The translations under genes were made by a program, and so were the position numbers. Source: an uncultured Lachnospiraceae bacterium (GTDB lineage Bacteria > Bacillota > Clostridia > Lachnospirales > Lachnospiraceae). Taken from it: a DNA stretch of 37,871 nt. The DNA lies in the NCBI GenBank assembly GCA_902777355.1, contig CACYTU010000027.1, forward strand, positions 53,110-90,980, written 5' to 3'. Shown one piece after another: positions 9,495-30,322 of the stretch (within the stretch, counting starts at the first letter, position 1; every line of letters starts with the position of its first letter). The notes under the pieces were generated by a model. The model was given only the letters and a program-made list of their open reading frames with translations. It searched no databases and was not told the origin of the DNA.

Positions 9495-9712
9495 CATATT
9501 TGTTAAATTTCTTTAAACAATCCAGAGCAAATCACGGTCATTTTGCTTAAATTTTAACAAAATTTCCGCTCGAAATTGTGTATATTACATAAACCAACCC
9601 CGTCATACGCACATCCCACAGTCATTATAACCACAGCCCCTGATCAGCTCCGCAGAATTGCAAAAAGCGCAGGCCTTTCCTGATACCTCCCTCTTTCCCC
9701 CGACCGGCCCGA

Positions 9713-9756
9713 GTCCGCCGCAGGGCAGAAAATACATTTCACGGGCTGTGTCATAA
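9713..9756. repeat. 44-bp dispersed repeat, copy 1
   Basis: It starts GTCCGCCGCAGGGCAG and ends GGGCTGTGTCATAA. It is the same element as 17805-17848, 22682-22727 and 30079-30123. It abuts the T tract of the terminator at 9754-9792 on the downstream side. The rest of 9600-9712 shows nothing recognisable. Confidence 0.85.
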
Positions 9757-9792
9757 AAAACCGAAGGGACAGGCTGACACCATCCCTCCGGT
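9754..9792 (-). terminator. Rho-independent terminator of the HPr-LDH gene
   Basis: A stem of ACCGGAGGGA with TCCCTTCGGT on the minus strand (9783-9792 with 9760-9769) is followed by a run of T (9759-9754). It lies about 130 nt after the stop codon. Confidence 0.88.
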
Positions 9793-17747: not shown

Positions 17748-17804
17748 GTTACAAGTCACTCCCCCACCGGATTCGACGTGTTTTTGAGCGCCGGAATGCT
17801 CAGC
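17748..17804 (-). mobile_element. 155-bp GTTAC element, truncated copy D (minus orientation)
   Basis: It begins GTTACAAGTCACTCCCCCAC and continues GACGTGTTTTTGAGCGCCGGA, which is nearly the reverse complement of the last third of the copy at 19566-19719. It is cut in its third hairpin exactly where the 44-bp repeat at 17805 begins. The two other hairpins are missing. Confidence 0.85.
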
Positions 17805-17848
17805 GTCCGCCGCAAGGCGGAAAATACATTGCGCGGGCCGTGTCATAA
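17805..17848. repeat. 44-bp dispersed repeat, copy 2
   Basis: GTCCGCCGCAAGGCGG then AAAATACATT and a GGGCCGTGTCATAA end, the same 44-nt length as copy 1. It sits between truncated element D and the terminator at 17853-17887. Confidence 0.88.
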
Positions 17849-17852
17849 CGAA

Positions 17853-19264: not shown

Positions 19265-19436
19265 ATGATGTCGGGGTCAAAAGGTGGTTAAAGATAATCC
19301 GTCTCGTCAATATGCACAAACACCTTGGACACGCTCTCGCTCAATCCTCGCTGGCAGCGGTCGCAATGGTCCTGCGGTTGTATGTGCATATTGACGAGAC
19401 TCAGAGCCTTTTCCTGGCTTTTGACCTTTACATCAT
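19265..19436. mobile_element. MITE-like element with 54-bp inverted arms
   Basis: Arms 19265-19318 and 19383-19436 are inverted copies. Each reads ATGATGT-N3-GGTCAAAAG-N17-GTCTCGTCAATATGCACA, with the inner 18 bp identical. The N17 spacers differ in sequence but are equal in length. A 64-nt centre separates the arms. Flanks TTTATTTT (19257-19264) and TTTATTCT (19437-19444) match at 7 of 8 positions, as expected for an 8-bp target duplication. No reading frame is present, so it would need a transposase supplied elsewhere. Confidence 0.75.
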
Positions 19437-19491
19437 TTTATTCTGTACGTAGTGGTTTGTTATTATGTTTATTATTATTTTGTTTATTATA

Positions 19492-19765
19492 ATGATGTCT
19501 ATATCAAAAGATACACGATGGAACTGAGTTTCGTCAATATGCATAACCGCCCGGGCACACTTTCAGTTACCGTCACACCCTGACCAGGGTGTGACGGTAA
19601 CGTTGCGTTCGGCGATTCCAATTTCGCTTCGCTAAACGCCGAACGCCCTAAAACTCCGGTTTTTGAGCGCTCCGGCGCTCAAAAACACGTCGATTCTGGT
19701 GGGGAAGTGAACTTGTAACTACTCTCACTCCTGCCCGCCGGCAGCGGTATTACAGCCGCTGAAAG
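19492..19765. mobile_element. Second copy of the 54-bp-arm element, interrupted by the GTTAC element
   Basis: 19492-19545 is a third 54-bp arm with the same spacing (ATGATGT...TCAAAAG-N17-GTTTCGTCAATATGCATA). The following GGGCACACTTTCA and, after the insertion, ACTCTCACTCC...GGCAGCGG, match the centre of the first copy (GGACACGCTCTCGCTC...GGCAGCGG). The centre is split at 19566-19719 by the 154-bp GTTAC element. The right arm is missing. Confidence 0.7.
19566..19719 (+). mobile_element. 155-bp GTTAC element, copy A (154 bp)
   Basis: It starts GTTAC and ends GTAAC. Hairpin 1 is a perfect 17-bp stem (19566-19601). Hairpin 2 is GCGTTCGGCG/CGCCGAACGC enclosing ATTCCAAT..CGCTT. Hairpin 3 is GTTTTTGAGCGC/GCGCTCAAAAAC with a TCCG loop. 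The tail reads CGTCGATTC...GTAAC. Flanks CACTTTCA and TACTCTCA agree at 6 of 8 positions. No open frame of note. Confidence 0.85.
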
Positions 19766-19769
19766 ACAA

Positions 19770-19844
19770 CTGCCGGTACCTGGCCACAATAATACAGCTG
19801 CCGGTACCCGGCCGCTAAAATACAGCGGCAAGGTACCGGCAGCT
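19770..19844. repeat. 28-bp direct repeat and strong hairpin after the vWA gene
   Basis: CTGCCGGTACCTGGCC... (19770-19797) repeats at 19798-19824. A 13-bp perfect stem AGCTGCCGGTACC/GGTACCGGCAGCT (19796-19808 with 19832-19844) has an inner CCGCT/AGCGG stem. It lies about 95 nt after the vWA stop codon on the minus strand; without a T tract it is at best an unusual terminator. Confidence 0.7.
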
Positions 19845-19936
19845 CACAAAGGCCCTTCGATTGTATTAGTGTATCTACAGGGCGGCGGATGTTGCCGTCG
19901 GATACTGCTGAAGGATATTACTTTTACTGACGGATT

Positions 19937-20617
19937 TCACTTTTTCCGTCTGCTCCTTTTGCGGAAGTCCTCCCTGATGGGAGCCATCGCCTTATCTTCG
20001 TCAAACATGGCGTTCATGGCTTTTGCGCTGCGGGCTGCGCGGGCACAGCTCACTGCGTCAGCGAGCGCGGAATACTGCACTCTTGTACCCTCGCCGTCAT
20101 GCACATAGTTGGCGGTACGGCTGGCATGAATGCCGATCCTGGCACCCTCTTCCGCCGCGTCAATATTGGCTCCGACAAACAGGAATTCCCAGTTGTACTT
20201 TTCCTTCTGTCTCTCGATCATCTGCTTTACTTTGGCATAGCTGTAGGCACGGCTGGCATTCTCTTTTCCGTCTGTCGTAATGATAAAGATGGTCTTCTCG
20301 GGAACATCCTCCTCGCGGGCGTATTTATGAACATTGCCGATGTGATGGATCGCGCCGCCGACAGCGTCGAGCAGTGCCGTGCAGCCCCTGACGTAATACT
20401 GGGCATCAGTCATAGTCTCCACTTCGCGGATGTCCACCCGGTCATAGATCACTTCGGACCGGTCATCAAAGAGAACCGCGGAAATCAGTACCTCGCCCTG
20501 CTCTTTGCGCTGTTTTTCAATCATGCTGTTGAAGCCGCCGATCGTATCTTCTTCCAGTCCCCGCATGGAACCGCTGCGGTCAAGAATCATAACAAGCTCT
20601 GTAAGTCCTTTTTTCAT
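19937..20617 (-). CDS. von Willebrand factor A domain protein
   Basis: The protein has 226 residues. The ATG at 20617 was chosen because AGGAGG lies 8 nt upstream; a GTG six bases earlier is less well placed. A complete MIDAS is visible: LDRSGSM near residue 15, a Thr in GCTALLDAV near 80, and Asp in IITTDGKENA near 115. Residues 20-200 form a single vWA fold, with a short basic tail RKRSRRKK. No signal peptide or transmembrane helix, so it acts in the cytoplasm, probably as a metal-dependent protein-binding module. It follows the macro-domain gene by 175 nt, and the two may act together. Confidence 0.88.
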   Translation of the reverse strand: MKKGLTELVMILDRSGSMRGLEEDTIGGFNSMIEKQRKEQGEVLISAVLFDDRSEVIYDRVDIREVETMTDAQYYVRGCTALLDAVGGAIHHIGNVHKYAREEDVPEKTIFIITTDGKENASRAYSYAKVKQMIERQKEKYNWEFLFVGANIDAAEEGARIGIHASRTANYVHDGEGTRVQYSALADAVSCARAARSAKAMNAMFDEDKAMAPIREDFRKRSRRKK

Positions 20618-20692
20618 AATCACTGCCTCCTTATATTTGTTTATGTTTCCCTCGGTGATGTAATAAGGATAGCAGGACTTAGGGATGAAATG

Positions 20693-20709
20693 GTCGCTTT
20701 AAAAGCGAC
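20693..20709. promoter_or_regulatory. Palindrome upstream of the vWA gene
   Basis: GTCGCTTT-A-AAAGCGAC is a perfect 8+1+8 inverted repeat about 80 nt before the vWA start, in the spacer after the macro-domain gene. It could be an operator or an RNA stem; no regulator is identified. Confidence 0.4.
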
Positions 20710-20792
20710 ATCTTATATCAGCCTGGAACAAGCCGGTCAGCTGGGGGAATTTCCCGTCTTTTTTCCTTTCTTCAGCACCGGCTGTTTTCCGG

Positions 20793-22454
20793 TTACACTG
20801 CCCCCAGAAGCGGCAGGTCATAATCGAAGAGCAGAGCGTTGACTTTGTAAATATCATAAATCCCGTTCTGAATACAATAAGAAATAATCAGGTCAAATTT
20901 GTTCCCCGGAGAGAGTGCCATTCCCGCTCTCCTGAGCAGGTCCACTGCTTCGTCCATGTTCAGTTCCAACGCAATCGCAAGCGCGATCACTGTGCGGCGG
21001 CTGGGACTGTAATTGGGATTACAACGGATTTTTGAAAACAGCTTTCGGTCAAGATTTGCGCGCTTGTAGACCTGCGCGTCGGTGAGTCCTCTCTCGTCAA
21101 TCATCCTCAGGAGGCATTCCTGAAAGCTCTCGCCCATATGGGAGATGACATCCTGAAGGCTTCTCCTGTGGACGGAGCTGCCGCTCTCAACCCGCCTTTC
21201 CTCTTTGCGAAAAGGTTTTTTCGATGGGCGCTTCCCTGCCGGCCGGGAGTAGGCGTCCACCCTTGCCATATGTTCCGCAGAATCCCGGGGACTCCCGGAA
21301 GGACTCTGATATGAATCTCCTGCCCCCGGTAAGAGGTCTTCCGAACCGGATTTACGGGAATAAAAGATTTCGCTTTCATCCGCTTGAGCATCATGCGGAT
21401 GAACAGCTTCCGGAGCAGTTTCTTCCGATCCCTCCGGATAAGCGTCCCCGGGCTCCGATCCCTCCGGATAAGCGCTCCCCTGTTCCGGTCTGTCCGGATA
21501 AGCGCTCCCGGGTTCCGGTCTGTCCGGATAAGCGCTCCCGGGTTCCGGTCTGTCCGGATAAGTGCCCCCGGGTTCCGGTCTATCCGGATAAGTGCCTTTA
21601 GGTTCCTCCGAAAAAGACAGTTCACGATCAGACCCGGATCCGGAATGCTCCGGGAATATAGCAGAGTACTCCTCAGGGCTTTCCTCCAGAAAGATATCCG
21701 GCACTTCCCCTGTGTCTATGGCGGGCACAGGGATCTGCTCCCGGTCCGCGCTCATCTCCTGCGGAGCTTTGTCCGCACTGAGCTCCCGGGGGGATTTGTC
21801 CGCGCTGAGCTCCTGTGAAGATTTATCCGCGCGTCGACGGGACCTCAGATACTCCAATATATGATCGGAGCCTCCCTGCCTTCTCCCAGGATACTGGCCG
21901 CTGTATTCCTTCCGGAGACGGTTCTCCACATAATGCTCGTCGATATACTGGCTGACATCCTTCCTCAGTTCGGACGAAAGCTCAAATGTTTTCCTGTCGA
22001 AAACCACCAGAGTGACATCCATCTCCTCTTCTTCCAGAAAGGACGAGATCTGGTCAAGGGCAATGTTGAGGGCTTTCTCTCTGGGGAAGCCATAGGTGCC
22101 TGTTGAGATCAGGGGAAAGGCGATGCTGCGGCAGTGCAGACGGCGGGCAATCTGCAGTGACTTGCGGTAGCATGAAGCCAGCAGTTCGAATTCTCTGTGC
22201 TCTCCGTCCACCCAGACAGGTCCCACTGTATGAATGATATATTTCGCCTTCAGGTTAAATGCCGGAGTGACCGCGGCTTCTCCCACCCCCAGACGACCGA
22301 TCCTGCGGCGCTCCGCCAGAAGCTTCTTCTCGCCGGCCGCCCTGTATATGGCGGAATCTGTACCTGCGCCGTAAGTCGGATCAGGATTTGCCGTGTTGAC
22401 AATTGCGTCGGCATGCACTTTGGTAATATCGTTTCTGATGATCTTGAAAGGCAT
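20793..22454 (-). CDS. Macro-domain protein with repeat linker and C-terminal HTH-like domain
   Basis: The protein has 553 residues. Residues 1-165 are a macro domain (ADP-ribose or related ligand binding): ADAIVNTANPDPTYGAG, SAIYRAAG, FPLISTGTYGFP. Residues about 190-435 are a low-complexity acidic/Pro linker with ELSADKSPR-type repeats and then a ten-residue YPDRPEPGSA-type repeat (about six copies). Residues about 440-553 form a helical domain with GLTDAQVYKRANLDRKLFSKI, which resembles an XRE helix-turn-helix. GGGAGAG precedes the ATG. ADP-ribosyl hydrolysis or sensing of ADP-ribosylation is the likely role of the macro part; DNA binding by the C-terminus is inference. The vWA gene follows. 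Confidence 0.85.
   Translation of the reverse strand: MPFKIIRNDITKVHADAIVNTANPDPTYGAGTDSAIYRAAGEKKLLAERRRIGRLGVGEAAVTPAFNLKAKYIIHTVGPVWVDGEHREFELLASCYRKSLQIARRLHCRSIAFPLISTGTYGFPREKALNIALDQISSFLEEEEMDVTLVVFDRKTFELSSELRKDVSQYIDEHYVENRLRKEYSGQYPGRRQGGSDHILEYLRSRRRADKSSQELSADKSPRELSADKAPQEMSADREQIPVPAIDTGEVPDIFLEESPEEYSAIFPEHSGSGSDRELSFSEEPKGTYPDRPEPGGTYPDRPEPGSAYPDRPEPGSAYPDRPEQGSAYPEGSEPGDAYPEGSEETAPEAVHPHDAQADESEIFYSRKSGSEDLLPGAGDSYQSPSGSPRDSAEHMARVDAYSRPAGKRPSKKPFRKEERRVESGSSVHRRSLQDVISHMGESFQECLLRMIDERGLTDAQVYKRANLDRKLFSKIRCNPNYSPSRRTVIALAIALELNMDEAVDLLRRAGMALSPGNKFDLIISYCIQNGIYDIYKVNALLFDYDLPLLGAV
21424..21605. repeat. 30-bp in-frame tandem repeat inside the macro-domain gene
   Basis: Five full 30-bp units (21441-21590) plus partial units at both ends; the units at 21501-21530 and 21531-21560 are nearly identical. 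Each encodes ten residues of the type AYPDRPEPGS. Because 30 is a multiple of three, copy number can change without breaking the frame. Confidence 0.92.
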
Positions 22455-22498
22455 TTTTTTCTCTCCCGATGCAGAATGTTTCTGTTAATTGAATTATA

Positions 22499-22527
22499 AG
22501 TATACCGCAGACCAACCGGGATGTCGA
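22499..22527 (-). promoter_or_regulatory. Promoter of the macro-domain gene
   Basis: -35 TCGACA (22527-22522), 17-nt spacer, -10 TATACT (22504-22499). The remaining 22528-22681 shows nothing recognisable. Confidence 0.6.
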
Positions 22528-22681
22528 TGAAGAGCGTTTCCTTTCTGAACGCAGGTCCCGCAAAAGGAGACTCGGGAATCCTGCGGCTGAGATCAGGAAT
22601 ATTGCAACGGTAAGAATTATCCTGCTCAGCAGTTCATAGGAGGCACCACGTCCTGCCGCCCTCTGTCTCCAGCCGGACCGC

Positions 22682-22727
22682 GTCCGCCGCCAGGCTAAAA
22701 AACCGCATTGCGCATGACGCGTCACAA
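22682..22727. repeat. 44-bp dispersed repeat, copy 3 (diverged)
   Basis: GTCCGCCGCCAGGCTAAAAA then GCATTGCGCATGACGCGTCACAA. It is recognisably the same element with two extra bases and several changes. It directly follows, on the minus strand, the T tract of the terminator at 22725-22776. Confidence 0.65.
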
Positions 22728-22776
22728 AAAGACTGCCATGCGCGGAGATTGAGCCAATCTCAAAGCACGGCAGTCT
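22725..22776 (-). terminator. Terminator of the iscS-iscU-metY-cysK operon
   Basis: AGACTGCC/GGCAGTCT outer stem (22769-22776 with 22730-22737) with an inner GAGATTG/CAATCTC stem is followed by five T on the minus strand. It lies about 200 nt after the cysK stop codon; the intervening 22777-22972 is pyrimidine-rich with no gene seen. Confidence 0.85.
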
Positions 22777-22972
22777 CATTTACTTCTGTCTTCTTTTGTT
22801 TTTCCTATTTTTACTTTTACTTTTTCTTTTAATTGTAATCCATCAGCTTTCCCGCCATTTTCTTCCAGTCATGCACGGACACGTCTGTTTGACGACATCT
22901 GTGAAAAGAATACAGGCAGCATGATTCAAGACTCGCTAGCGGTCTTTCGCGCCGGCTGCGGGCAGTTCATTT

Positions 22973-23905
22973 TTATTCCGTGAACAGGGCGGTCGAATAG
23001 TATCTGTCACCGCTGTCAGGCAGCAGGGCTACGATGACTTTTCCCTTATTTTCGGGTCTCTTCGCAAGTTCGATTGCCCCGTGCAGGGCGGCGCCTGAGG
23101 AAATTCCGACGGAGATGCCCTCCTTCTTCGCAAGCAGTTTGGCAGCCGCGAAAGCGTCAGCTGTCTGTGCGCGGAAAATCTCGTCATACACCTTGGTATT
23201 GAGTACATCCGGCACGAAGCCCGCGCCGATTCCCTGGATTCCGTGAGGTCCTTTTCTGCCCTCGGACAGGACCGGCGAGTCCGCCGGCTCCAGCGCCACG
23301 ATCTTCACATCCGGCTTCTTTTCCTTCAGAAATTCACCGGTGCCGGTCAGAGTGCCGCCGGTGCCTACGCCTGCAATGAAAATATCCACTTTTCCGTCTG
23401 TATCATTCCAGATCTCGGGGCCGGTCGTAGCCTTGTGAACTGCCGGATTTGCCGGATTGACAAACTGTCCGGGGATAAAACTGCCAGGAATCTCCGCTGC
23501 CAGTTCCTTTGCCTTTGCGATGGCTCCGGGCATTCCCTTGGCTCCTTCTGTCAGGACGATCTCCGCACCGTAGGCCTTGAGGATATTTCTGCGCTCCACG
23601 CTCATCGTCTCGGGCATTGTAAAAATGGCGCGGTATCCTTTGGACGCGGCGATTGAGGCAAGGCCTATGCCTGTATTTCCGGAAGTCGGCTCGATAATGA
23701 CCGCTCCCTCTTTCAAAACTCCCCTGCTCTCGGCATCCTCGATCATGGCTTTGGCGATCCTGTCCTTGACGCTTCCCGCGGGATTAAAGTACTCCAGCTT
23801 TACAAGAACCGTGGCCTCCAGCCCCAGTTCCTTCTCAATATTGACAACCTCCACCAGAGGTGTATTTCCGATTAGTTCAACGACTCCCTTATAAATGTTT
23901 GACAT
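22973..23905 (-). CDS. cysK: Cysteine synthase (O-acetylserine sulfhydrylase)
   Basis: The protein has 310 residues, the normal length. The PLP lysine is in NPAGSVKDR, the substrate loop is EPTSGNTGIGLA, and the phosphate-binding loop is GVGTGGTLTGTGE. It makes cysteine from O-acetylserine and sulfide in the cytoplasm. AAAAGGAG precedes the start by about 6 nt. It is last in a sulfur-handling gene set after metY, iscU and iscS, so the cluster joins cysteine synthesis to cysteine consumption for Fe-S assembly. Confidence 0.96.
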   Translation of the reverse strand: MSNIYKGVVELIGNTPLVEVVNIEKELGLEATVLVKLEYFNPAGSVKDRIAKAMIEDAESRGVLKEGAVIIEPTSGNTGIGLASIAASKGYRAIFTMPETMSVERRNILKAYGAEIVLTEGAKGMPGAIAKAKELAAEIPGSFIPGQFVNPANPAVHKATTGPEIWNDTDGKVDIFIAGVGTGGTLTGTGEFLKEKKPDVKIVALEPADSPVLSEGRKGPHGIQGIGAGFVPDVLNTKVYDEIFRAQTADAFAAAKLLAKKEGISVGISSGAALHGAIELAKRPENKGKVIVALLPDSGDRYYSTALFTE

Positions 23906-23948
23906 GATGTCTCCTTTTCCTGTGCTTCTTATGCCGGACTATTCCTGC

Positions 23949-24015
23949 TTTTCTTTCGGAATGACGGTATTTTTCTTTCGAAATGACAGTATTTTTTCTT
24001 TATGAAATGGTGGAA
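23949..24015. repeat. 22-bp tandem repeat directly after the metY stop
   Basis: Three units (23949-23970, 23971-23992, 23993-24015) share TTTTCTTTCGGAATGACGGT or close variants. The array ends one base from the metY stop codon. Confidence 0.8.
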
Positions 24016-24016
24016 T

Positions 24017-25312
24017 TTATGCGTCCGCCTTTTTTACAGCCTTGAATCCCTTCTCCAGATCGGCGATTATGTCATCGATATGCTCGGTGCCGATGGAGAG
24101 CCTGATGGTATTGGGGCGGATCCCCTGGTCGAGAAGCTCCTCTTCGGAGAGCTGTGAGTGGGTGGTCGAAGCGGGGTGGATCACCAGGCTCTTGACATCC
24201 GCGACGTTTGCCAGCAGAGAGAAGATCTCCAGATGATCGATGAAAGTCCAGGCCGCTTTCTGGCCTCCCTTGATCTCGAAGGTAAAAATAGACGCGCCCC
24301 CGTCGGGGAAATACTTTTTATACAGTTCGTGGTCGGGATGGTCCGGCAGGGAAGGATGGTTCACCTTTTCCACAAGGGGATGTGCCTGCAGGTATTCCAC
24401 GACCTTCTTTGTGTTTTCGGCATGTCTCTCAAGGCGGAGAGAAAGGGTCTCCACGCCCTGCAGAAGCAGGAAGGCATTGAAGGGAGAGATCGCAGCTCCT
24501 GTATCGCGCAGGAGAATGGCGCGGATGTAAGTGACAAAGGCTGCGGGGCCGACCGCATCATAGAAGGAGATTCCGTGATAGCTGGGGTTGGGCTCGGCAA
24601 TCTGGGGATATTTGCCGCCGGCTTCCCAGTCGAACTTTCCGGACTCAACGATAATACCGCCCAGGGTCGTTCCGTGTCCCCCGATGAATTTGGTCGCCGA
24701 ATGTACCACAATGTCAGCCCCGTGTTCAATCGGTCGGATCAGATAGGGAGTTCCGAAAGTGTTGTCAATGACAAGCGGAAGTCCGTGGCGGTGGGCGATC
24801 TCCGCGATCGCGTCTATATCCGGGATGTCGCTGTTAGGGTTTCCCAGTGTCTCCAGATAGACAGCCCTGGTATTTTCCTGAATAGCGTTCTCAACCTCTT
24901 CCAGATTGTGGGCATCCACAAATGTCGTCGTGATCCCGAACTGGGGCAGAGTGTGGGAGAGCAGGTTGAAGCTGCCGCCGTAGATAGTCTTCTGGGCTAC
25001 GACATGTCCCCCGTTGGGCGCCAGGGCCTGAATGGTATATGTGATCGCTGCGGCTCCCGATGCCAGGGCAAGACCTGCGCTTCCTCCCTCGAGGGCGGCC
25101 ACTCTCTTTTCCAGCACATCCTGTGTGGAATTGGTCAGTCTTCCATAGATATTACCGGGATCCGCAAGGCCGAAACGGTCAGCAGCATGCTGACTGTTGT
25201 GAAACACATAGGAAGTTGTCTGATAAATCGGCACAGCGCGGGAATCCGTAGCCGGATCCGCCTGTTCCTGTCCGACATGAAGCTGAAGTGTTTCAAATTT
25301 ATATTTACTCAT
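24017..25312 (-). CDS. metY: O-acetylhomoserine aminocarboxypropyltransferase (homocysteine synthase)
   Basis: The protein has 431 residues, the typical MetY length and about 50 more than cystathionine gamma-synthases. The Cys/Met metabolism PLP enzyme motif [12 protein letters not shown] carries the PLP lysine, and the N-terminal [10 protein letters not shown] and TTSYVF blocks are characteristic. It should use sulfide (or methanethiol) and O-acetylhomoserine to form homocysteine (or methionine). It starts 24 nt after the iscU stop codon with AAAGGGAG upstream, so it is co-transcribed. Confidence 0.94.
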
Positions 25313-25336
25313 TTTTATTCTCCCTTTTATACAGTT

Positions 25337-25768
25337 TTATGATTCATCATGAGGATCCCGCACCGGCCTGTTTTCAAAATCGGCCGGCTTCTTTTCAGGA
25401 TTCTTTGAATAATAATCTTCAAGTGCTGAGTGTATCGCTTCCTCTGCCAGGACCGAACAGTGCAGCTTGTAAGCCGGAAGGCCGCCGAGCGCCTCGGTCA
25501 CAGCTTTATTGGTAAGGTGCATGGCCTCGCTCACAGGCTTGCCCTTGATCAGCTCCGTAGCCATGGAACTTGAGGCGATCGCGCTTCCACAGCCGAAGGT
25601 CTCAAATTTCACATCCTCTACAATATCGTCCTCGATCTTGAGATACATCTTCATGATATCGCCGCACTTGGCGTTGCCGACCTCGCCGACCGCGTCCGCG
25701 TCCTCGATGACGCCCACATTGCGGGGATTTCTGAAATGATCCATTACTTTTTCACTGTACAGTGCCAT
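25337..25768 (-). CDS. iscU: Fe-S cluster assembly scaffold, IscU/NifU N-terminal type
   Basis: The protein has 143 residues. The three cluster-ligand cysteines are in NAKCGDIM, FGCGSAIASSS and LHCSVLAEEAI. The usual Asp is present two residues after the first Cys (CGD). The last 25 residues form a charged tail beyond the core. It accepts sulfur from the cysteine desulfurase encoded immediately upstream and assembles Fe-S clusters. GGAGGAG precedes the ATG. Confidence 0.94.
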   Translation of the reverse strand: MALYSEKVMDHFRNPRNVGVIEDADAVGEVGNAKCGDIMKMYLKIEDDIVEDVKFETFGCGSAIASSSMATELIKGKPVSEAMHLTNKAVTEALGGLPAYKLHCSVLAEEAIHSALEDYYSKNPEKKPADFENRPVRDPHDES

Positions 25769-25871
25769 TTTTCTCCTCCATTCTCATGCGGCTTTGTCCC
25801 GCATTGCTCTCGCAGAAATTTCACATTCGCTTTACTGATCATTTGTATATGCCACGCGCGGTTTCCCGCGT

Positions 25872-25925
25872 CCTGTATTTAAAGAATGTCCTGTATTTAA
25901 AGAATGTTCTGTATTCACAGAATGA
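25872..25925. repeat. 18-bp tandem repeat overlapping the iscS stop
   Basis: Two identical units (25872-25889, 25890-25907; minus strand ACATTCTTTAAATACAGG) and a third (25908-25925) diverged copy that contains the last codons and stop of iscS. Confidence 0.85.
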
Positions 25926-27102
25926 AAGGAGTCTTTCCTGCCATCAGGTCTCTCCAGACCGGTGAAAAGCTTCTGAGATATTCGACGACCTCTTTGACCG
26001 ATTTGATCATGTAATCGACTTCCTCCTCAGTGATATCCTCCCCGAGGGTCAGCCTGAGGGATCCGTGTGCCACATCGTGCACCCTCCCGATTGCCAGAAG
26101 TACATGACTGGGGTCCAGCGACCCCGAGGTACAGGCACTTCCTGAGGAAGCACAGATTCCCTTGTCATCCAGAAGCAGCAGAAGGGATTCACCCTCAATT
26201 CCCTCGAAACAGAAATTCACATTTCCCGGCAGACGCTTCTTCTGGTCTCCGTTCAGCGCGGAGTGGGGAATCTCAGACAGGCCTCTGATCAGCCTGTCCC
26301 TGAGCGCGCTCTGATGCGCCATGTTCTTATCTATTCCTTCAGCAGCTTCCTTCAGAGCCGCCGCCATGGACATGATGCCCGGCACGTTTTCCGTGCCGGC
26401 TCGCTTTCCTTTCTCCTGCGCACCGCCCTCGATCAGATTGGTGAGGACTATTCCCTTCCTGGCGTACAGAAATCCGACGCCCTTGGGGCCGTGGAACTTA
26501 TGGGCGGAGGCAGACAGCATATCCACATTCCACTCTTTTACATCGACATGCAGATGTCCCATTGCCTGCACGGCATCCGTATGAAAGAGGACACCGTGCT
26601 TTTTACATATTTCTCCAATCTCTTTGATCGGCTGGATCGTGCCGATCTCATTGTTGGCAGTCATGATGGTGACCAGACATGTATCATCCCTGATCGCCGC
26701 TTCCAGCTCCTGCGGCAGGATAATCCCGTTTTCATGGACAGGAAGGAGAGTCACTTCAAATCCCTCTTTCTCCAGTCTGTTCAAAGTGTGCAGAATCGCA
26801 TGGTGCTCAAAGGCGGAGGAAATGATATGCTTTTTCCCTTTCTTTGCCCCGAAAGCCGCTGCTGACCTCAGCGCCTGATTGTCGGCTTCGCTCCCGCCGG
26901 ATGTAAAAAAGATTTCCTGCGGAGAAGCATTGATGACAGCCGCGACCTCCTCTCTTGCAGACTCAAGTGCTTCCTTGGCACGCTGTCCTGTCTCATACAG
27001 GCTGGAGGGATTCCCATAGATTTCCTCCATGTAAGGGATCATGGTATCGATCGCCTTCCTGCTCATTTTCGTGGTCGCCGCGTTGTCCGCGTAAATCTTC
27101 AT
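25915..27102 (-). CDS. iscS: Cysteine desulfurase, NifS/IscS family
   Basis: The protein has 395 residues. The ATG at 27102 was chosen over an upstream in-frame start because GGGAGG lies 7 nt before it and the product begins MKIYADNAATT, the family N-terminus. The PLP lysine is in SASAHKFHGPKGVGF and the active Cys loop is SSGSACTSGS. It removes sulfur from cysteine for Fe-S assembly on IscU, encoded next. It is the first gene of the iscS-iscU-metY-cysK operon, under a near-consensus promoter with an overlapping palindrome. The last codons belong to an 18-bp repeat array. Confidence 0.95.
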   Translation of the reverse strand: MKIYADNAATTKMSRKAIDTMIPYMEEIYGNPSSLYETGQRAKEALESAREEVAAVINASPQEIFFTSGGSEADNQALRSAAAFGAKKGKKHIISSAFEHHAILHTLNRLEKEGFEVTLLPVHENGIILPQELEAAIRDDTCLVTIMTANNEIGTIQPIKEIGEICKKHGVLFHTDAVQAMGHLHVDVKEWNVDMLSASAHKFHGPKGVGFLYARKGIVLTNLIEGGAQEKGKRAGTENVPGIMSMAAALKEAAEGIDKNMAHQSALRDRLIRGLSEIPHSALNGDQKKRLPGNVNFCFEGIEGESLLLLLDDKGICASSGSACTSGSLDPSHVLLAIGRVHDVAHGSLRLTLGEDITEEEVDYMIKSVKEVVEYLRSFSPVWRDLMAGKTPFIL

Positions 27103-27203
27103 AATATATCCTCCCGTTCTACTGCAGCACAGGCTTTTTCCGTCCCACAGCAGTCTTGATCTCTTCAATAATCTTCTGGAAGTATTATCACTTGACATGG
27201 CAG

Positions 27204-27238
27204 ATTATAATTCTATTAACCTACTATGTCAATAGGTT
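27204..27238 (-). promoter_or_regulatory. iscS promoter with overlapping palindromic operator
   Basis: Perfect -35 TTGACA (27232-27227), 17-nt spacer, perfect -10 TATAAT (27209-27204). A 21-bp palindrome (AACCTA-N9-TAGGTT, 27218-27238) spans the -35, the place expected for a repressor. An Rrf2-family regulator (IscR or CymR type) is the obvious candidate, but the nearby rrf2 gene is broken. Confidence 0.8.
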
Positions 27239-27270
27239 TATAAAATAAAATCTTATCTGTCCAAAATTTT

Positions 27271-27425
27271 GTTACATGTACACGCCCCCTCGAAGGGCGT
27301 GTACATGTAACATTGCGCGCGGCGATTCCGATACGCTTTGCGTGCGCCGCGCGCCATACAACTCGGGTTTTTGCGCTGAAAATCGCGCAAAAACGCCTCG
27401 AATTCGAGGGGGTCTGTACTGTAAC
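27271..27425 (+). mobile_element. 155-bp GTTAC element, copy B
   Basis: It starts GTTAC and ends GTAAC, 155 bp. Hairpin 1 has a perfect 17-bp stem (27271-27311). Hairpin 2 is GCGCGCGGCG/CGCCGCGCGC enclosing ATTCCGATACGCTT. Hairpin 3 is GTTTTTGCGC/GCGCAAAAAC. The loop of hairpin 1 (CCCCCTCGAA, 27285-27294) is perfectly complementary to TTCGAGGGGG (27403-27412) near the 3' end. Flanks AAAATTTT and AAATTTTT agree at 7 of 8 positions. It lies upstream of the iscS promoter. The remaining 27426-27560 is AT-rich with small hairpins only. Confidence 0.88.
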
Positions 27426-27560
27426 AAATTTTTCAAAAATGTTCCAAAACGAGCAACTTTAACTCCCTCAAGAGGGTATGACAGTTACTTTTACCTCTTA
27501 TTTCGTTCCGTTCATAAAAAAAGGACAGTTAAAAATTCTCACCGTCCGGAAAAAAACAAT

Positions 27561-27621
27561 AAAAAACCGCCGGCACACTGGTGTCCTGCCTGGGGGAAGC
27601 ATTTCACACTGCAGCCGGCGG
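27561..27621 (-). terminator. Terminator of the double methyltransferase gene
   Basis: CCGCCGGC/GCCGGCGG stem (27614-27621 with 27567-27574) with a long loop, followed by six T on the minus strand (27566-27561). Confidence 0.82.
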
Positions 27622-27676
27622 CTTTTCCGCTCTATCGTTATACTTGTGGTCATAATCTCGTGTTTACAAACACATC

Positions 27677-29191
27677 TCAGGAAGTCTTTCCACCCCATCT
27701 GAATGTCGCCCACCGGTTGTTCATCTTCGGGACCAGCATGGCAAACAGCCTTCCCCTGAGGGTATATTTTTTCATTTCCTCATTGAAACTATGCTCCTCC
27801 ACCAGCTGCAGGCCGTCTACCATGTCTGCGATCTCCTGCGCGGAATCTGTTCCAGACAGGAAGCGCGCATTGGTGCTTTTGACCGCGTCGTGATGCTTTT
27901 CATTTCCCGCCATCAGCTTGCAGTTCTGCTCCGCGATCATAAGACCGCCGTCCGGAAAATGCCTGACTATATTCCTCAGAAGATCCGCAATCTGCTCCAA
28001 TGTAAAGTACATAAACAGGCCTTCGGCTATGAAAACCGGTTTTGATTGTCTTCCTTTAAGAGCTTCTTCGATGGCTCCGAACCAGTCCTCTGTCAGCACA
28101 TCAGCCTCAACCATGGTGACCCTGTCCCGCTCGGGAAACGCTTTTTTTCTGGCAGCGATTGAGTCCGCAAGGTCTATGTCAAACCAGAGGATTCTGCCGT
28201 TGTCCACACGGGAAAACCTGTCGTCGAATCCCGCCCCCAGGTTGACGACCACCGTGTCCGGATGCTTTTTAATAATGCTCTTCATCTGACGGTCCAGCAT
28301 AATCGTTCGGGCTACGACGCCCTCATGGGAAAGAAACTTATCATATGGCCGCGGATCCAGCTGAAGGGCCTGTATGATTTCCACTGCCTTCGGATCTCTG
28401 ATCCTGGGATTTTTCCGCAGTGTCTCACCTGCTTTGATGGCTACCGGAATAAGGGCTGTTGTCTGAACATCTCCGAGCTGCAGTTCCACCTTATTATCTC
28501 CTTTCTCCATTTCACTCCTGACCCTGTTTTTGTCAGTCCTGTTTATCTGACCGGGCTTTCTGGCGACCAGGTGCATTCTGAATTTCTCAGCTCTTTCCAG
28601 ATTTTCGACCTTCAGACCTGCATTGGCGCACAGAGTTCTGATTTCTTTCAGCGAACGCGCCGCCACATCGCCGTGCCCCGTCAGGTTTGCCAGAGGCATC
28701 TCCATGTGGTTCATCAGCCACAGAAGCGGGCCGGGAGCCGTGTAGTCCTGAAGGATCAGTCTCCCGCCGGGACGAAGCACTCGAAAAGCACTATTGAAAA
28801 AGGCCTGCGGATCCGGGTAATGATGAAAACTGTTCGAGCAGATGATCACATCAAATCCAGCCTCCTCAAAAGGCATATTCTCACAGTCTCCCACGACCCA
28901 TTGGACGCCTGACAGATTTTTGTTCCTTGCTGCCCCGATCATGGCAGGAGTGATGTCCAGTCCGGTATAATGCTTTGACGGGTCCTTTTCGTAAAGGATG
29001 GAGATCATAGCCCCTGTTCCACAGCCGCAGTCCAGCAGGTCTGTGAACTCCTCCTTTGATAATTCCTCCTCAATATAGGGATAATCCTCCCTGCACATCT
29101 CATAGATCCCTGCACGCAAAGTCTCATAACGATTCGCCGCCCTGGTAAACTCTCTGACCGTCAATTCCTTATACTGTTTCTGTGTCTTCAT
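27677..29191 (-). CDS. Two-domain S-adenosylmethionine methyltransferase
   Basis: The protein has 504 residues. The ATG at 29191 was chosen because the one at 29254 would fall at the predicted transcription start. Domain 1 (about 20-230) is a UbiE-like class I methyltransferase: LLDCGCGTGAM, DVIICSNSFHHYPDP, LRPGGRLIL. Domain 2 (about 240-490) resembles leucine carboxyl/PPM-type O-methyltransferases: VVNLGAGFDDRFSR, ILWFDIDLADSI, VFIAEGLFMYF. Each domain has its own SAM site. The substrate is unknown; fused methyltransferases of this look suggest secondary or metal-related metabolism. It is monocistronic, with its own palindromic operator and terminator, and lies between two inverted copies of the 155-bp element. 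Confidence 0.82.
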   Translation of the reverse strand: MKTQKQYKELTVREFTRAANRYETLRAGIYEMCREDYPYIEEELSKEEFTDLLDCGCGTGAMISILYEKDPSKHYTGLDITPAMIGAARNKNLSGVQWVVGDCENMPFEEAGFDVIICSNSFHHYPDPQAFFNSAFRVLRPGGRLILQDYTAPGPLLWLMNHMEMPLANLTGHGDVAARSLKEIRTLCANAGLKVENLERAEKFRMHLVARKPGQINRTDKNRVRSEMEKGDNKVELQLGDVQTTALIPVAIKAGETLRKNPRIRDPKAVEIIQALQLDPRPYDKFLSHEGVVARTIMLDRQMKSIIKKHPDTVVVNLGAGFDDRFSRVDNGRILWFDIDLADSIAARKKAFPERDRVTMVEADVLTEDWFGAIEEALKGRQSKPVFIAEGLFMYFTLEQIADLLRNIVRHFPDGGLMIAEQNCKLMAGNEKHHDAVKSTNARFLSGTDSAQEIADMVDGLQLVEEHSFNEEMKKYTLRGRLFAMLVPKMNNRWATFRWGGKTS

Positions 29192-29258
29192 AAGCTGCCT
29201 CTCATCAAATCGCCATCGCCCCTTCACGTAAAATCCTAAGGTCCCTTGAGACATTTTA

Positions 29259-29287
29259 ATGTTAGCTTAAGCTAACCAAATTGTCAA
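29259..29287 (-). promoter_or_regulatory. Methyltransferase promoter with perfect 16-bp palindrome
   Basis: -35 TTGACA (29287-29282), 17-nt spacer, -10 TAACAT (29264-29259). GTTAGCTTAAGCTAAC (29261-29276) fills the spacer and -10 region. Its TTAGC..GCTAA halves recall DtxR/MntR-family operators, so metal control is possible but unproven. Confidence 0.65.
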
Positions 29288-29357
29288 ATATCTTATCACC
29301 AACGGCATAAGAAATTCAGGATAAGAAATTGTCCTCTCGTCGATGCCTTATTTACAC

Positions 29358-29386
29358 TTGATTCACCTATTCGCCTACGGTATAAT
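29358..29386 (+). promoter_or_regulatory. Promoter of the rrf2 pseudogene
   Basis: -35 TTGATT (29358-29363), 17-nt spacer, perfect -10 TATAAT (29381-29386). The transcript would have a leader of about 275 nt that includes element copy C. Confidence 0.7.
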
Positions 29387-29457
29387 AGTATAAATTTTCC
29401 TGAAAAAGACAATGTTAAAACAATGATAAAAATACACAGTTACTCAGCAGACAAGTC

Positions 29458-29612
29458 GTTACTTTTCAGACCGGCACGGAACTCGAGGTGTTTTCGAGCT
29501 GTTTTAGCGGGAAAACCCGGGGGTTACGGCGAAAGTCGCGTGCTCAAGCGCATTGGAATACGATTTCGCAAGTATCTGTTCACGCCTTCGACAGGGCGTG
29601 AACAGGAGTAAC
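29458..29612 (-). mobile_element. 155-bp GTTAC element, copy C (minus orientation)
   Basis: It is 155 bp, GTTAC to GTAAC. Read on the minus strand, hairpin 1 is CTGTTCACGCC/GGCGTGAACAG, hairpin 2 is GCGAAA-TCG/CGA-TTTCGC enclosing ATTCCAATGCGCTT, hairpin 3 is GTTTTC/GAAAAC, and the tail is CCTCGAGTTCC...GTAAC. Flanks GACAAGTC and GATATGTC agree at 6 of 8 positions. It sits between the methyltransferase and rrf2. Confidence 0.82.
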
Positions 29613-29667
29613 GATATGTCTTGCAATACCGGTCTTATCAGCCGGATTTTGTAGAGGGAGATAGAAT

Positions 29668-30050
29668 ATGATTTCAACAAAAGGACGTTACGCTCTGCGC
29701 GTCATGCTGGATCTTGCAGAGAATGACAGCGGGAAATTTATACCGCTTAACAGAATATTTCAAAAAAATATCTGGAGATTATTGTGAAGGATCTGGTGAA
29801 GGGCGGTCTGGTCAGCGGTGCCAGCGGCAAGGGAGGCGGTTACCGCCTCTGCCGCAAACCCGAAGAATATACTGTCGGGGAGATACTGGACCTTACAGAG
29901 AACACAGCCCTGACGACAGTGGCCTGCCTGGCTGAAGATGCTGAAAAATGCCCTTATGCAGCCGGATGCAGGACCCTGCCCATGTGGACAGAATTTGATA
30001 ATATGGTACACGATTTCTTTTATGGAAAAAAACTGAGCGATCTTCTCTGA
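29668..30050 (+). pseudogene. Frameshifted Rrf2-family regulator (IscR/CymR type)
   Basis: The first frame reads MISTKGRYALRVMLDLAEND...KFIPL, the canonical Rrf2 start. It then jumps frame. The second frame continues QNISKKYLEIIVKDLVKGGLV, then SGKGGGYRLCRKPEEYTVGEIL, and the Cys-rich ACLAEDAEKCPYAAGC expected for an Fe-S or cysteine-sensing member. About six codons of the DNA-binding helices between IPL and QNIS are missing and only two bases remain, consistent with loss of about 16 nt. The gene therefore cannot make an intact product unless this is a sequence error. Rrf2 proteins usually repress iscS/iscU or cysteine genes, which lie close by. GGGAG precedes the ATG. Confidence 0.85.
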
Positions 30051-30078
30051 TTCCATGAACTGCTCCCGGCCTGCCTGT

Positions 30079-30123
30079 GTCCGCCGCAGGGCGGATCATA
30101 CATTACACGGGTCTTGTCATTAA
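30079..30123. repeat. 44-bp dispersed repeat, copy 4
   Basis: GTCCGCCGCAGGGCGG then ATCATACATTACACGGGTCT and TGTCATTAA; 45 bp. It lies after the rrf2 pseudogene and, on the minus strand, beyond the terminator and repeat array of the inositol operon. Confidence 0.85.
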
Positions 30124-30166
30124 GATGACAGACAGTCTGACCCGAACGGAACAGGGCGCCCAAAAA

Positions 30167-30322
30167 CTTTGTATACAAAAAAGCTTTGAATACTAAAAGC
30201 TTCAAATATCAAGAAGCTTTGAATACCAAAAAGCTTTGAATACCAAAAAAGCTTTGAATATCAAGAAGCTTTGAATACCAAAAAAGCTTTGAATATCAAA
30301 AAAGCTTTTGATACCAAAAAAC
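30167..30322. repeat. Nine-unit AAGCTTTGAATACCAAAA tandem array
   Basis: Nine units of 16-18 bp, each close to CTTTGAATACCAAAAAAG, fill the space between rrf2 and the terminator at 30316-30347. Unit length varies by one or two A residues. No coding potential seen. Confidence 0.92.

Follow-up and report, generated by a model that had tools for sequence, protein, structure and literature searches.

A structured, modular family of miniature inverted-repeat transposable elements with IS66-like ends in a Lachnospiraceae genome

How does a repeat of about 154 bp that carries no gene come to be scattered through a bacterial genome, and why do its copies stay folded when the sequences of their stems differ? 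These questions are raised by a 37,871-nucleotide stretch of the genome of an uncultured Lachnospiraceae bacterium (assembly GCA_902777355.1, contig CACYTU010000027.1, positions 53,110 to 90,980; hereafter the window), in which an earlier note, made from the sequence alone, had described three full copies and one truncated copy of such an element. The three full copies are present as described: copy 1 at 19566..19719 (+ strand, 154 bp), copy 2 at 27271..27425 (+ strand, 155 bp, the best preserved in the window) and copy 3 at 29458..29612 (− strand, 155 bp, the most decayed). A covariance model of the family matches them with E values of 2.6e-31, 2.2e-39 and 6.7e-29 (for copy 3 the match ends at 29609), which is no independent test, since all three are within the 43 copies used for building the model. 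The ~154-bp element has no coding capacity; one listed open reading frame (ORF) of at least 80 amino acids touches a full copy in the window, beginning in copy 2 and running 468 bases past its end (27276-27893). We conclude that the element belongs to a structured, modular family of miniature inverted-repeat transposable elements (MITEs) with IS66-like ends; there are known precedents for MITEs, for IS66 elements and for folded mobile repeats. In the explanation that we favour and consider likely, it is a non-autonomous, gene-less MITE mobilised in trans by an IS66-like DDE transposase, with DNA hairpins as a part of that explanation.

Transposition of the family is strongly supported, because many copies lie between exact 8-bp duplications, one orthologous locus lacks the element, and autonomous elements with similar ends make duplications of the same length; the signs of transposition seen in the earlier note were thus confirmed. 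Two sets of model matches, of 80 and 94, merged into 153 distinct insertions, and both flanks were present for 144. The 8-bp flanks were identical in 75 of the 144 and matched at 7 or more of 8 positions in 100, versus 0.015% and 0.1%, respectively, for random flank pairs. Among 123 candidate end pairs, a set that includes a second family and lone copies of the first hairpin, exact flanking repeats peaked at 8 bp, with 51 cases versus 2 at 7 bp and 5 at 9 bp. The last base of the exact duplications was C in 48 of 75. For the window, the count of 19 matching positions of 24 in the flanking near-repeats was right. Copy 1 lies between CACTTTCA (19558..19565) and TACTCTCA (19720..19727), a decayed target duplication matching at 6 of 8 positions, copy 2 between AAAATTTT (27263..27270) and AAATTTTT (27426..27433), matching at 7 of 8, and copy 3 between GACAAGTC (29450..29457) and GATATGTC (29613..29620), matching at 6 of 8. 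To find empty sites, 130 joined-flank queries were compared with the collected loci, which gave six spanning matches, five of them to self or overlaps. The sixth concerns an own-genome copy that has an exact duplication: the orthologous locus of a relative lacks the element, the two aligning at 79% identity over 401 columns, with gaps close to the junction. The empty-site comparison proposed earlier thus yielded one element-free locus, at which the junction itself has diverged.

The covariance-model search for further copies, also proposed earlier, returned at least 50 matches in the own genome. There, the core pattern ATTCCRATN{0,4}CGCTT was matched 25 times versus 0 for its reversed control, and the end pattern 87 times versus 1, with many of the 87 belonging to the second family; a 153-nt query matched 51 pieces, of which the weakest are short, chance-level matches. 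Of 61 sampled genomes of the genus, scanned with the model at an E threshold of 0.001 and stricter filter settings, 11 had matches (6 to at least 50 each) and 50 had none. An end pattern drawn mainly from the second family was absent from 391 other genomes of an order-wide sample that contained no other genome of the own genus. When a pattern for hairpin 1 was searched over one genome per species (84,980 species), all 76 stretches found were in Lachnospiraceae or Eubacteriales metagenome-assembled genomes or in 'Sarcina sp. DSM 11001', filed by NCBI under Clostridiaceae. The length of 154-155 bp given in the earlier note proved to be modal and not constant: among 59 close end pairs in the relatives' loci, the spacing is 132-192 bp in 54, most often 154, and 38-40 bp in five, which include lone hairpin 1. 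The 43 copies of the model were left from 52 non-redundant ones after nine of 169-192 bp with inserts had been set aside, five other copies of at least 165 bp being kept. By crude ORFs, to which we give little weight, 32 of 129 copies lie inside an ORF of at least 100 amino acids and 96 between ORFs, with one unplaced.

The three-hairpin order recognised in the window copies was recovered from the family alignment, in which RNAalifold placed 30 pairs in three hairpins over the 43 sequences, 16 of them with two-sided changes. In 74 distinct rows, 97.0% of 2073 cells were paired versus 82.9% in shuffled controls and two-sided change was found in 25 of the 30 pairs versus 10.2 in shuffles, pairing figures that are favoured by an alignment fitted to the same structure (slid versions give 40-49%). 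Covariation in the family is real, and the description of stems that differ yet stay paired was correct. Motif and cluster counts were made on 141 copies with at most 25 gaps. Hairpin 1 lies at 19566..19601 in copy 1 (GTTAC..GTAAC) and at 27271..27311 in copy 2 (both + strand, from the fold and family covariation), and at 29572..29612 in copy 3 (− strand, from sequence and fold). The element does have the GTTAC and GTAAC ends reported earlier, but GTTAC..GTAAC also bounds hairpin 1, so that most elements have three end motifs. The terminal arms of hairpin 1 covary, with GTTAC/GTAAC in 97 of the 141 copies, GCTAC/GTAGC in 12, GTTTC/GAAAC in 3, and GCTGC/GCAGC and GTTGC/GCAAC in 2 each; the far end of GCTAC/GTAGC-type copies can remain GTAAC.

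Hairpin 2 was resolved into a lower stem that varies between copies, a stretch of 7 unpaired nucleotides and an inner stem. Its lower stem, of which there are at least 25 arm types, is paired at 10 of 10 positions in 102 of 134 rows, and the unpaired stretch reads ATTCCAA in 103 of 141 copies and ATGCTRA in 25. In the window it was placed at 19605..19646 in copy 1 (+ strand, by fold and family data, with unpaired ATTCCAA at 19615-19621), at 27315..27354 in copy 2 (+ strand, by fold and family covariation, with unpaired ATTCCGA at 27325-27331) and, via the family alignment, at 29529..29569 in copy 3 (− strand). Hairpin 3 has the GTTTT/AAAAC arms noticed before, to which an extra covarying G-C/C-G pair was added. 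It lies at 19657..19689 in copy 1 (CG..GTTTTT / AAAAAC..CG) and at 27365..27397 in copy 2, both on the + strand and placed by fold and family covariation; the corresponding region of copy 3, 29487..29518 (− strand), is poorly paired. Across the family, the types of hairpins 1, 2 and 3 combine in many ways, which we read as module exchange, that is, stem sequences swapped between copies.

The truncated copy at 17748..17804 (− strand, E 0.041) is a real piece of the element, an inverted 3' end that stops inside hairpin 3 and is 89% like 19664-19710 over 47 bases. It had been said to start with GTTAC and end with GTAAC, which does not hold, as it has a single end and continues into another dispersed repeat. 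That separate 59-bp repeat occurs in the window at 9699-9757, 17791-17849 and 30065-30123, its three copies being 78-80% alike, and one of them adjoins the truncated piece.

Why, then, is the pairing kept? The source elements can be judged from clusters of amplified copies. In all five such clusters, of 3-9 near-identical copies each, the consensus is Watson-Crick at all counted pairs (30 of 30 in four clusters and 29 of 29 in the fifth). Among isolated copies, 41 of 110 show complete pairing, and at this rate the chance of five fully paired clusters out of five is about 0.7%. In the comparison of close copies, based on 130 full rows, 61 of the 69 changed cells were one-sided; standing copies decay mostly on one side after insertion. 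We read the fully paired amplified consensus, together with one-sided decay, as a sign that the mobile DNA needs its fold. Several observations weigh against this. Two of the five clusters share stems; with these two counted as one, four out of four would arise by chance with a probability of about 2%. Exact duplications flank 18 of 31 copies in the clusters, and in one cluster 2 of 8, so not all are very recent. Pairing is equal for copies with intact and with decayed duplications (96.3% versus 95.8%, p 0.32), and some terminal arms mismatch, such as GTTAC/ATAAC and GCTAC/GTAAC, found in 2 of the 141 copies each.

Some data on close copies fit a different account of the fold, one that is compatible with an IS66-linked MITE. 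Two-sided changes are in excess among close copies, with 8 cells in 52 copy pairs versus about 1 expected at the rate of change over 1539 cells, small palindromes have been gained within hairpins (loci L004, L023, L150, and L103, L124, L149, L167; L-numbers denote collected loci and G-numbers genomes), and swaps such as C-G/U-A/A-U occur with few intermediates. Pairing may accordingly be a by-product, a fold without function, in which palindromes are renewed by module exchange, as the many combinations of hairpin types would allow, and by replication errors, namely template switching in hairpins and gene conversion between arms. Against it, the preponderance of one-sided changes indicates that such correction does not act quickly, and still the consensus of each cluster is fully paired; the unpaired 7-nt stretch is also conserved within varying stems. 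We regard this account, the main rival as to the fold, as possible and hold it tentatively. A need for the fold and self-renewing palindromes may both act.

Strong covariation with a conserved unpaired motif would also be expected of a structured RNA under selection at the level of the host or of the element. Folding of 150 nt against dinucleotide shuffles gave z scores of −7.6 for copy 1, −7.3 for copy 2 and −2.9 for copy 3, so that two window copies have stable RNA folds. An element read as a single RNA strand would be expected to tolerate G·U but not A·C. Among 3923 cells of the 141 distinct rows used for pair counts, however, we found 56 G·T and 52 A·C mismatches (p 0.77), and among mismatch states recurring in at least three rows 7 were G·T and 5 A·C; therefore no RNA strand is favoured. 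This symmetry is informative chiefly for standing copies, which may be decaying, since a single copy decays once it is inserted. By crude ORFs, sense and antisense orientations between co-directional genes were even (22 versus 26), and sites between convergent genes were few (11 of 96). Rfam gave no match at the gathering threshold, none at E 1 in window positions 27200-29700, and two sub-threshold, chance-level matches in six other loci; in place of the earlier statement that no named family was recognised, the description 'MITE with IS66-like ends and duplications' can now be used, no Rfam family being over threshold. A canonical terminator was considered for hairpin 3 and rejected, as by eye, with no tool scan, T precedes and A follows the stem on either strand. 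Selection on RNA is not supported, and a structured RNA is in our view highly improbable. Of the earlier proposal of selection on RNA or single-strand DNA structure, the maintained pairing is supported and the selection on RNA is not. The pairing looks like a matter of DNA, arising from a need of the mobile copy or from palindrome-preserving replication errors.

What could move such an element? A search of relatives with PF03050 led to L198, and possible partners were found in the genus in the form of 2.2-2.7 kb elements with divergent IS66-type transposases, GTTAC-like ends and exact 8-bp duplications. The L198/L201 element is 2628 bp long, ends in GTTACAGTTCAGGCCCTACTGA and GTTACAGTTCAGACCCATCTGA and is flanked by the duplication CAAAAATT; it carries a transposase of 557 aa, in which PF03050 is found, and a companion ORF of 125 aa. 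GTTAC ends are also found in L203, L204, L205, L206 and L199/L207, GTAAC ends in L200/L208 and L209, and exact 8-bp duplications in all eight autonomous elements. Six genomes of the genus contain GTTAC-ended elements with IS66-like transposases. The transposases of L198, L199 and L200 were scanned with profiles and all pass the PF03050 cut-off of 23.1 bits (41.7, 46.5 and 135.1 bits); the others (L203-L206, L209) were identified as relatives of the L198 protein, with which they are 29-42% identical. Between L198 and L199 the companion ORFs share 38% identity over 104 residues, and neither has a Pfam match. The family 3' consensus matches the right end of L198 at 21 of 25 bases and an end in L212 at 20 of 25, and the 5' consensus matches ends in L212 and L203 (right end) at 15 of 16; 5000 shuffles of the 25-mers gave on average 6.4 matches and at most 15.

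A number of results count against this link. NF033517, the NCBI equivalog for IS66 (cut-off 180), is passed by the GTAAC-ended L200 (234.8) and missed by the GTTAC-ended L198 (110.4) and L199 (162.7), and we therefore use the label 'IS66-like'. The ungapped ends of the window copies themselves match less well, at 8-11, 13-18 and 13-17 of 25 bases for the 3' ends and at 6-10 of 16 for the 5' ends. The own genome (84% complete, 150 contigs) gave no match to PF03050 and none to the L198 protein. Across the genus, 4 of 11 carriers have a relative of the L198 protein, as do 6 of 50 non-carriers, a weak tracking; PF03050 gave no match in the carriers G017 (97%) and G428 (94%), and its one match in the carrier G419 (98%) is without such ends. 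The transposase with GTTAC ends that the earlier note had suggested looking for is thus present in relatives in the genus and was not found in the own genome.

Searches for a partner with other starting points were made as well. In 15 further PF03050 loci, several of them cut by contig ends, no pair of such ends was found in the flanks, with one single near-match in L251. An end-pair search of the own genome found only short elements with these ends, and 20 further regions behind unpaired ends held no autonomous element, five of them being uninformative as they stop at a contig end near the element. Two long end pairs of the own genome were rejected as autonomous elements: L064 encloses housekeeping genes (adk by eye) and L065 is a short element into which a transposase gene has inserted (IS110-like by eye). 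L114 was likewise rejected as a 4.3-kb element since it contains other genes. The transposase families searched by profile were PF03050 and PF06782, the latter for the ISLre2-type transposase; PF06782 had no match in the own genome, but its control was silent everywhere, making the result uninformative. The partner may have been lost from the own genome after a burst or may lie in unassembled sequence, or another enzyme may act. The lack of a partner there and the weak tracking across the genus would both suit a transposase of another family that makes 8-bp duplications, the IS66-like ends being a chance or convergent likeness. We consider this very unlikely, given the 21 of 25 end bases that match one IS66-like end and the recurrence of GTTAC-ended elements with IS66-like transposases in six genomes.

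From sequence comparison, then, a transposase of the IS66-like class would be what moves the element, and the DNA hairpins would matter for its movement. In the favoured explanation, an IS66-like transposase would bind both GTTACnGTnCAnnCC ends and cut or copy the element in trans, with insertion at an 8-bp staggered target cut, as the ends and duplications suggest. A DNA of ~154 bp is about one persistence length and is costly to bend. Extruded hairpins, in the role that we think most likely for them, would shorten this piece and bring its two ends together, and hairpin 1 would add an extra inverted end motif. Copies then decay after insertion, those that are amplified being fully paired in consensus. 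A stronger form of this idea, which we consider unlikely, is that mobility depends on the folded DNA and not on conserved internal sequence, so that the unit could shrink to a 40-bp end-only palindrome; stems would be free in sequence as long as they are paired, with hairpins joining the ends for the DDE transposase. The analysis links this folded, highly copied repeat with a likely class of transposase, and the ~150 collected copies let one ask why bacterial mini-transposons are so often palindromic, whether from a need of the mobile copy, as a host RNA or as a by-product of replication. The mismatch symmetry test, which helps to separate an RNA from a DNA reading, is applicable to other such repeats.

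Compared with known systems, the element shares with the IS66 family its 8-bp duplication, terminal repeats and, in the scanned presumed partners, the PF03050 transposase; unlike IS66 insertion sequences, it is gene-less and has three hairpins, and the presumed partners L198 and L199 carry the companion ORF described above. Ends of the IS66 family are known to start with GTAA, whereas GTTAC is found here and GTAAC in two of the presumed partner elements. REP/BIME palindromes are not known to make a target duplication upon insertion, and the exact duplications of the present element set it apart from them. The IS66-family elements ISPpa5a and ISPpa7 of Paracoccus have 8-bp duplications and terminal repeats of 22 and 35 bp (PMC3281130), and MITEPsy1 is a 100-nt element with a 4-nt duplication, probably derived from ISPsy2 (PMC3189936). 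As MITEPsy1 is there described, our element resembles it in being short, gene-less and multi-copy, with a target duplication and terminal repeats common to an insertion sequence, and differs from it in the length of the duplication (8 bp versus 4 nt); the term 'secondary structure' is not used in that text (PMC3189936). The bcr elements are described as linked to the motif TTTAT and possibly to a recombination-like mechanism (PMC6542083, PMC2267715). Like bcr1 of the Bacillus cereus group, as described there, the present family is ~150 bp long, mobile, folded and group-restricted with tens of copies, and unlike bcr1 it has IS66-like ends and 8-bp duplications that vary in sequence. REP palindromes, given as 20-40 bp (PMC3733652), share with it palindromic DNA and many copies, whereas our element is ~154 bp long with target duplications. 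Our literature search found no recognised description of an IS66-linked or Lachnospiraceae MITE of such a kind.

A second MITE family with the same ends is present in the own genome (pattern GTTACAGTTCAGGCC). Its members are ~110-207 bp long with long imperfect terminal repeats, many copies having exact 8-bp duplications (examples are L066 111-234, L067 79-241, L070 and L075), and a one-end query gave 51 matches. In L065 450-1571, a probable IS110-type gene (by eye) lies inside a second-family copy. End-only palindromes of 39-40 bp were found at L173 2127-2166 (flanks 8/8), L079 103-141 (7/8) and L081 118-156 (6/8), and are either the smallest moving units or deletion remnants. A third type, of ~87 bp at about L114 5139-5225, combines hairpin 1 with a different small hairpin and has a GTAAC end.

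Other features of the window lie near the copies or apart from them. Inverted repeats around GTCTCGTCAATATGCAC are found beside copy 1 (19265-19543). Copy 3 is immediately upstream of an Rrf2-type regulator (29669-30050), of which the listed frame is the C-terminal part only (29784-30050, PF02082 from profile position 44); by eye, an upstream start is in a different frame, which suggests either a disrupted gene or an assembly error. Short tandem arrays occupy 2230-2355 (21-bp TTCATGGGTAATAGTATACCC units) and 30162-30320 (16-18-bp AAGCTTTGAATACCAAA-like units), and a macro-domain protein has an in-gene 30-bp repeat at 21393-21602. At the start of the window, an IS200/IS605-type pair (1-894 and 979-1551, − strand) encodes a Y1 transposase (PF01797, above the cut-off) and a TnpB-like protein (PF01385, under the cut-off) whose frame extends off the window.

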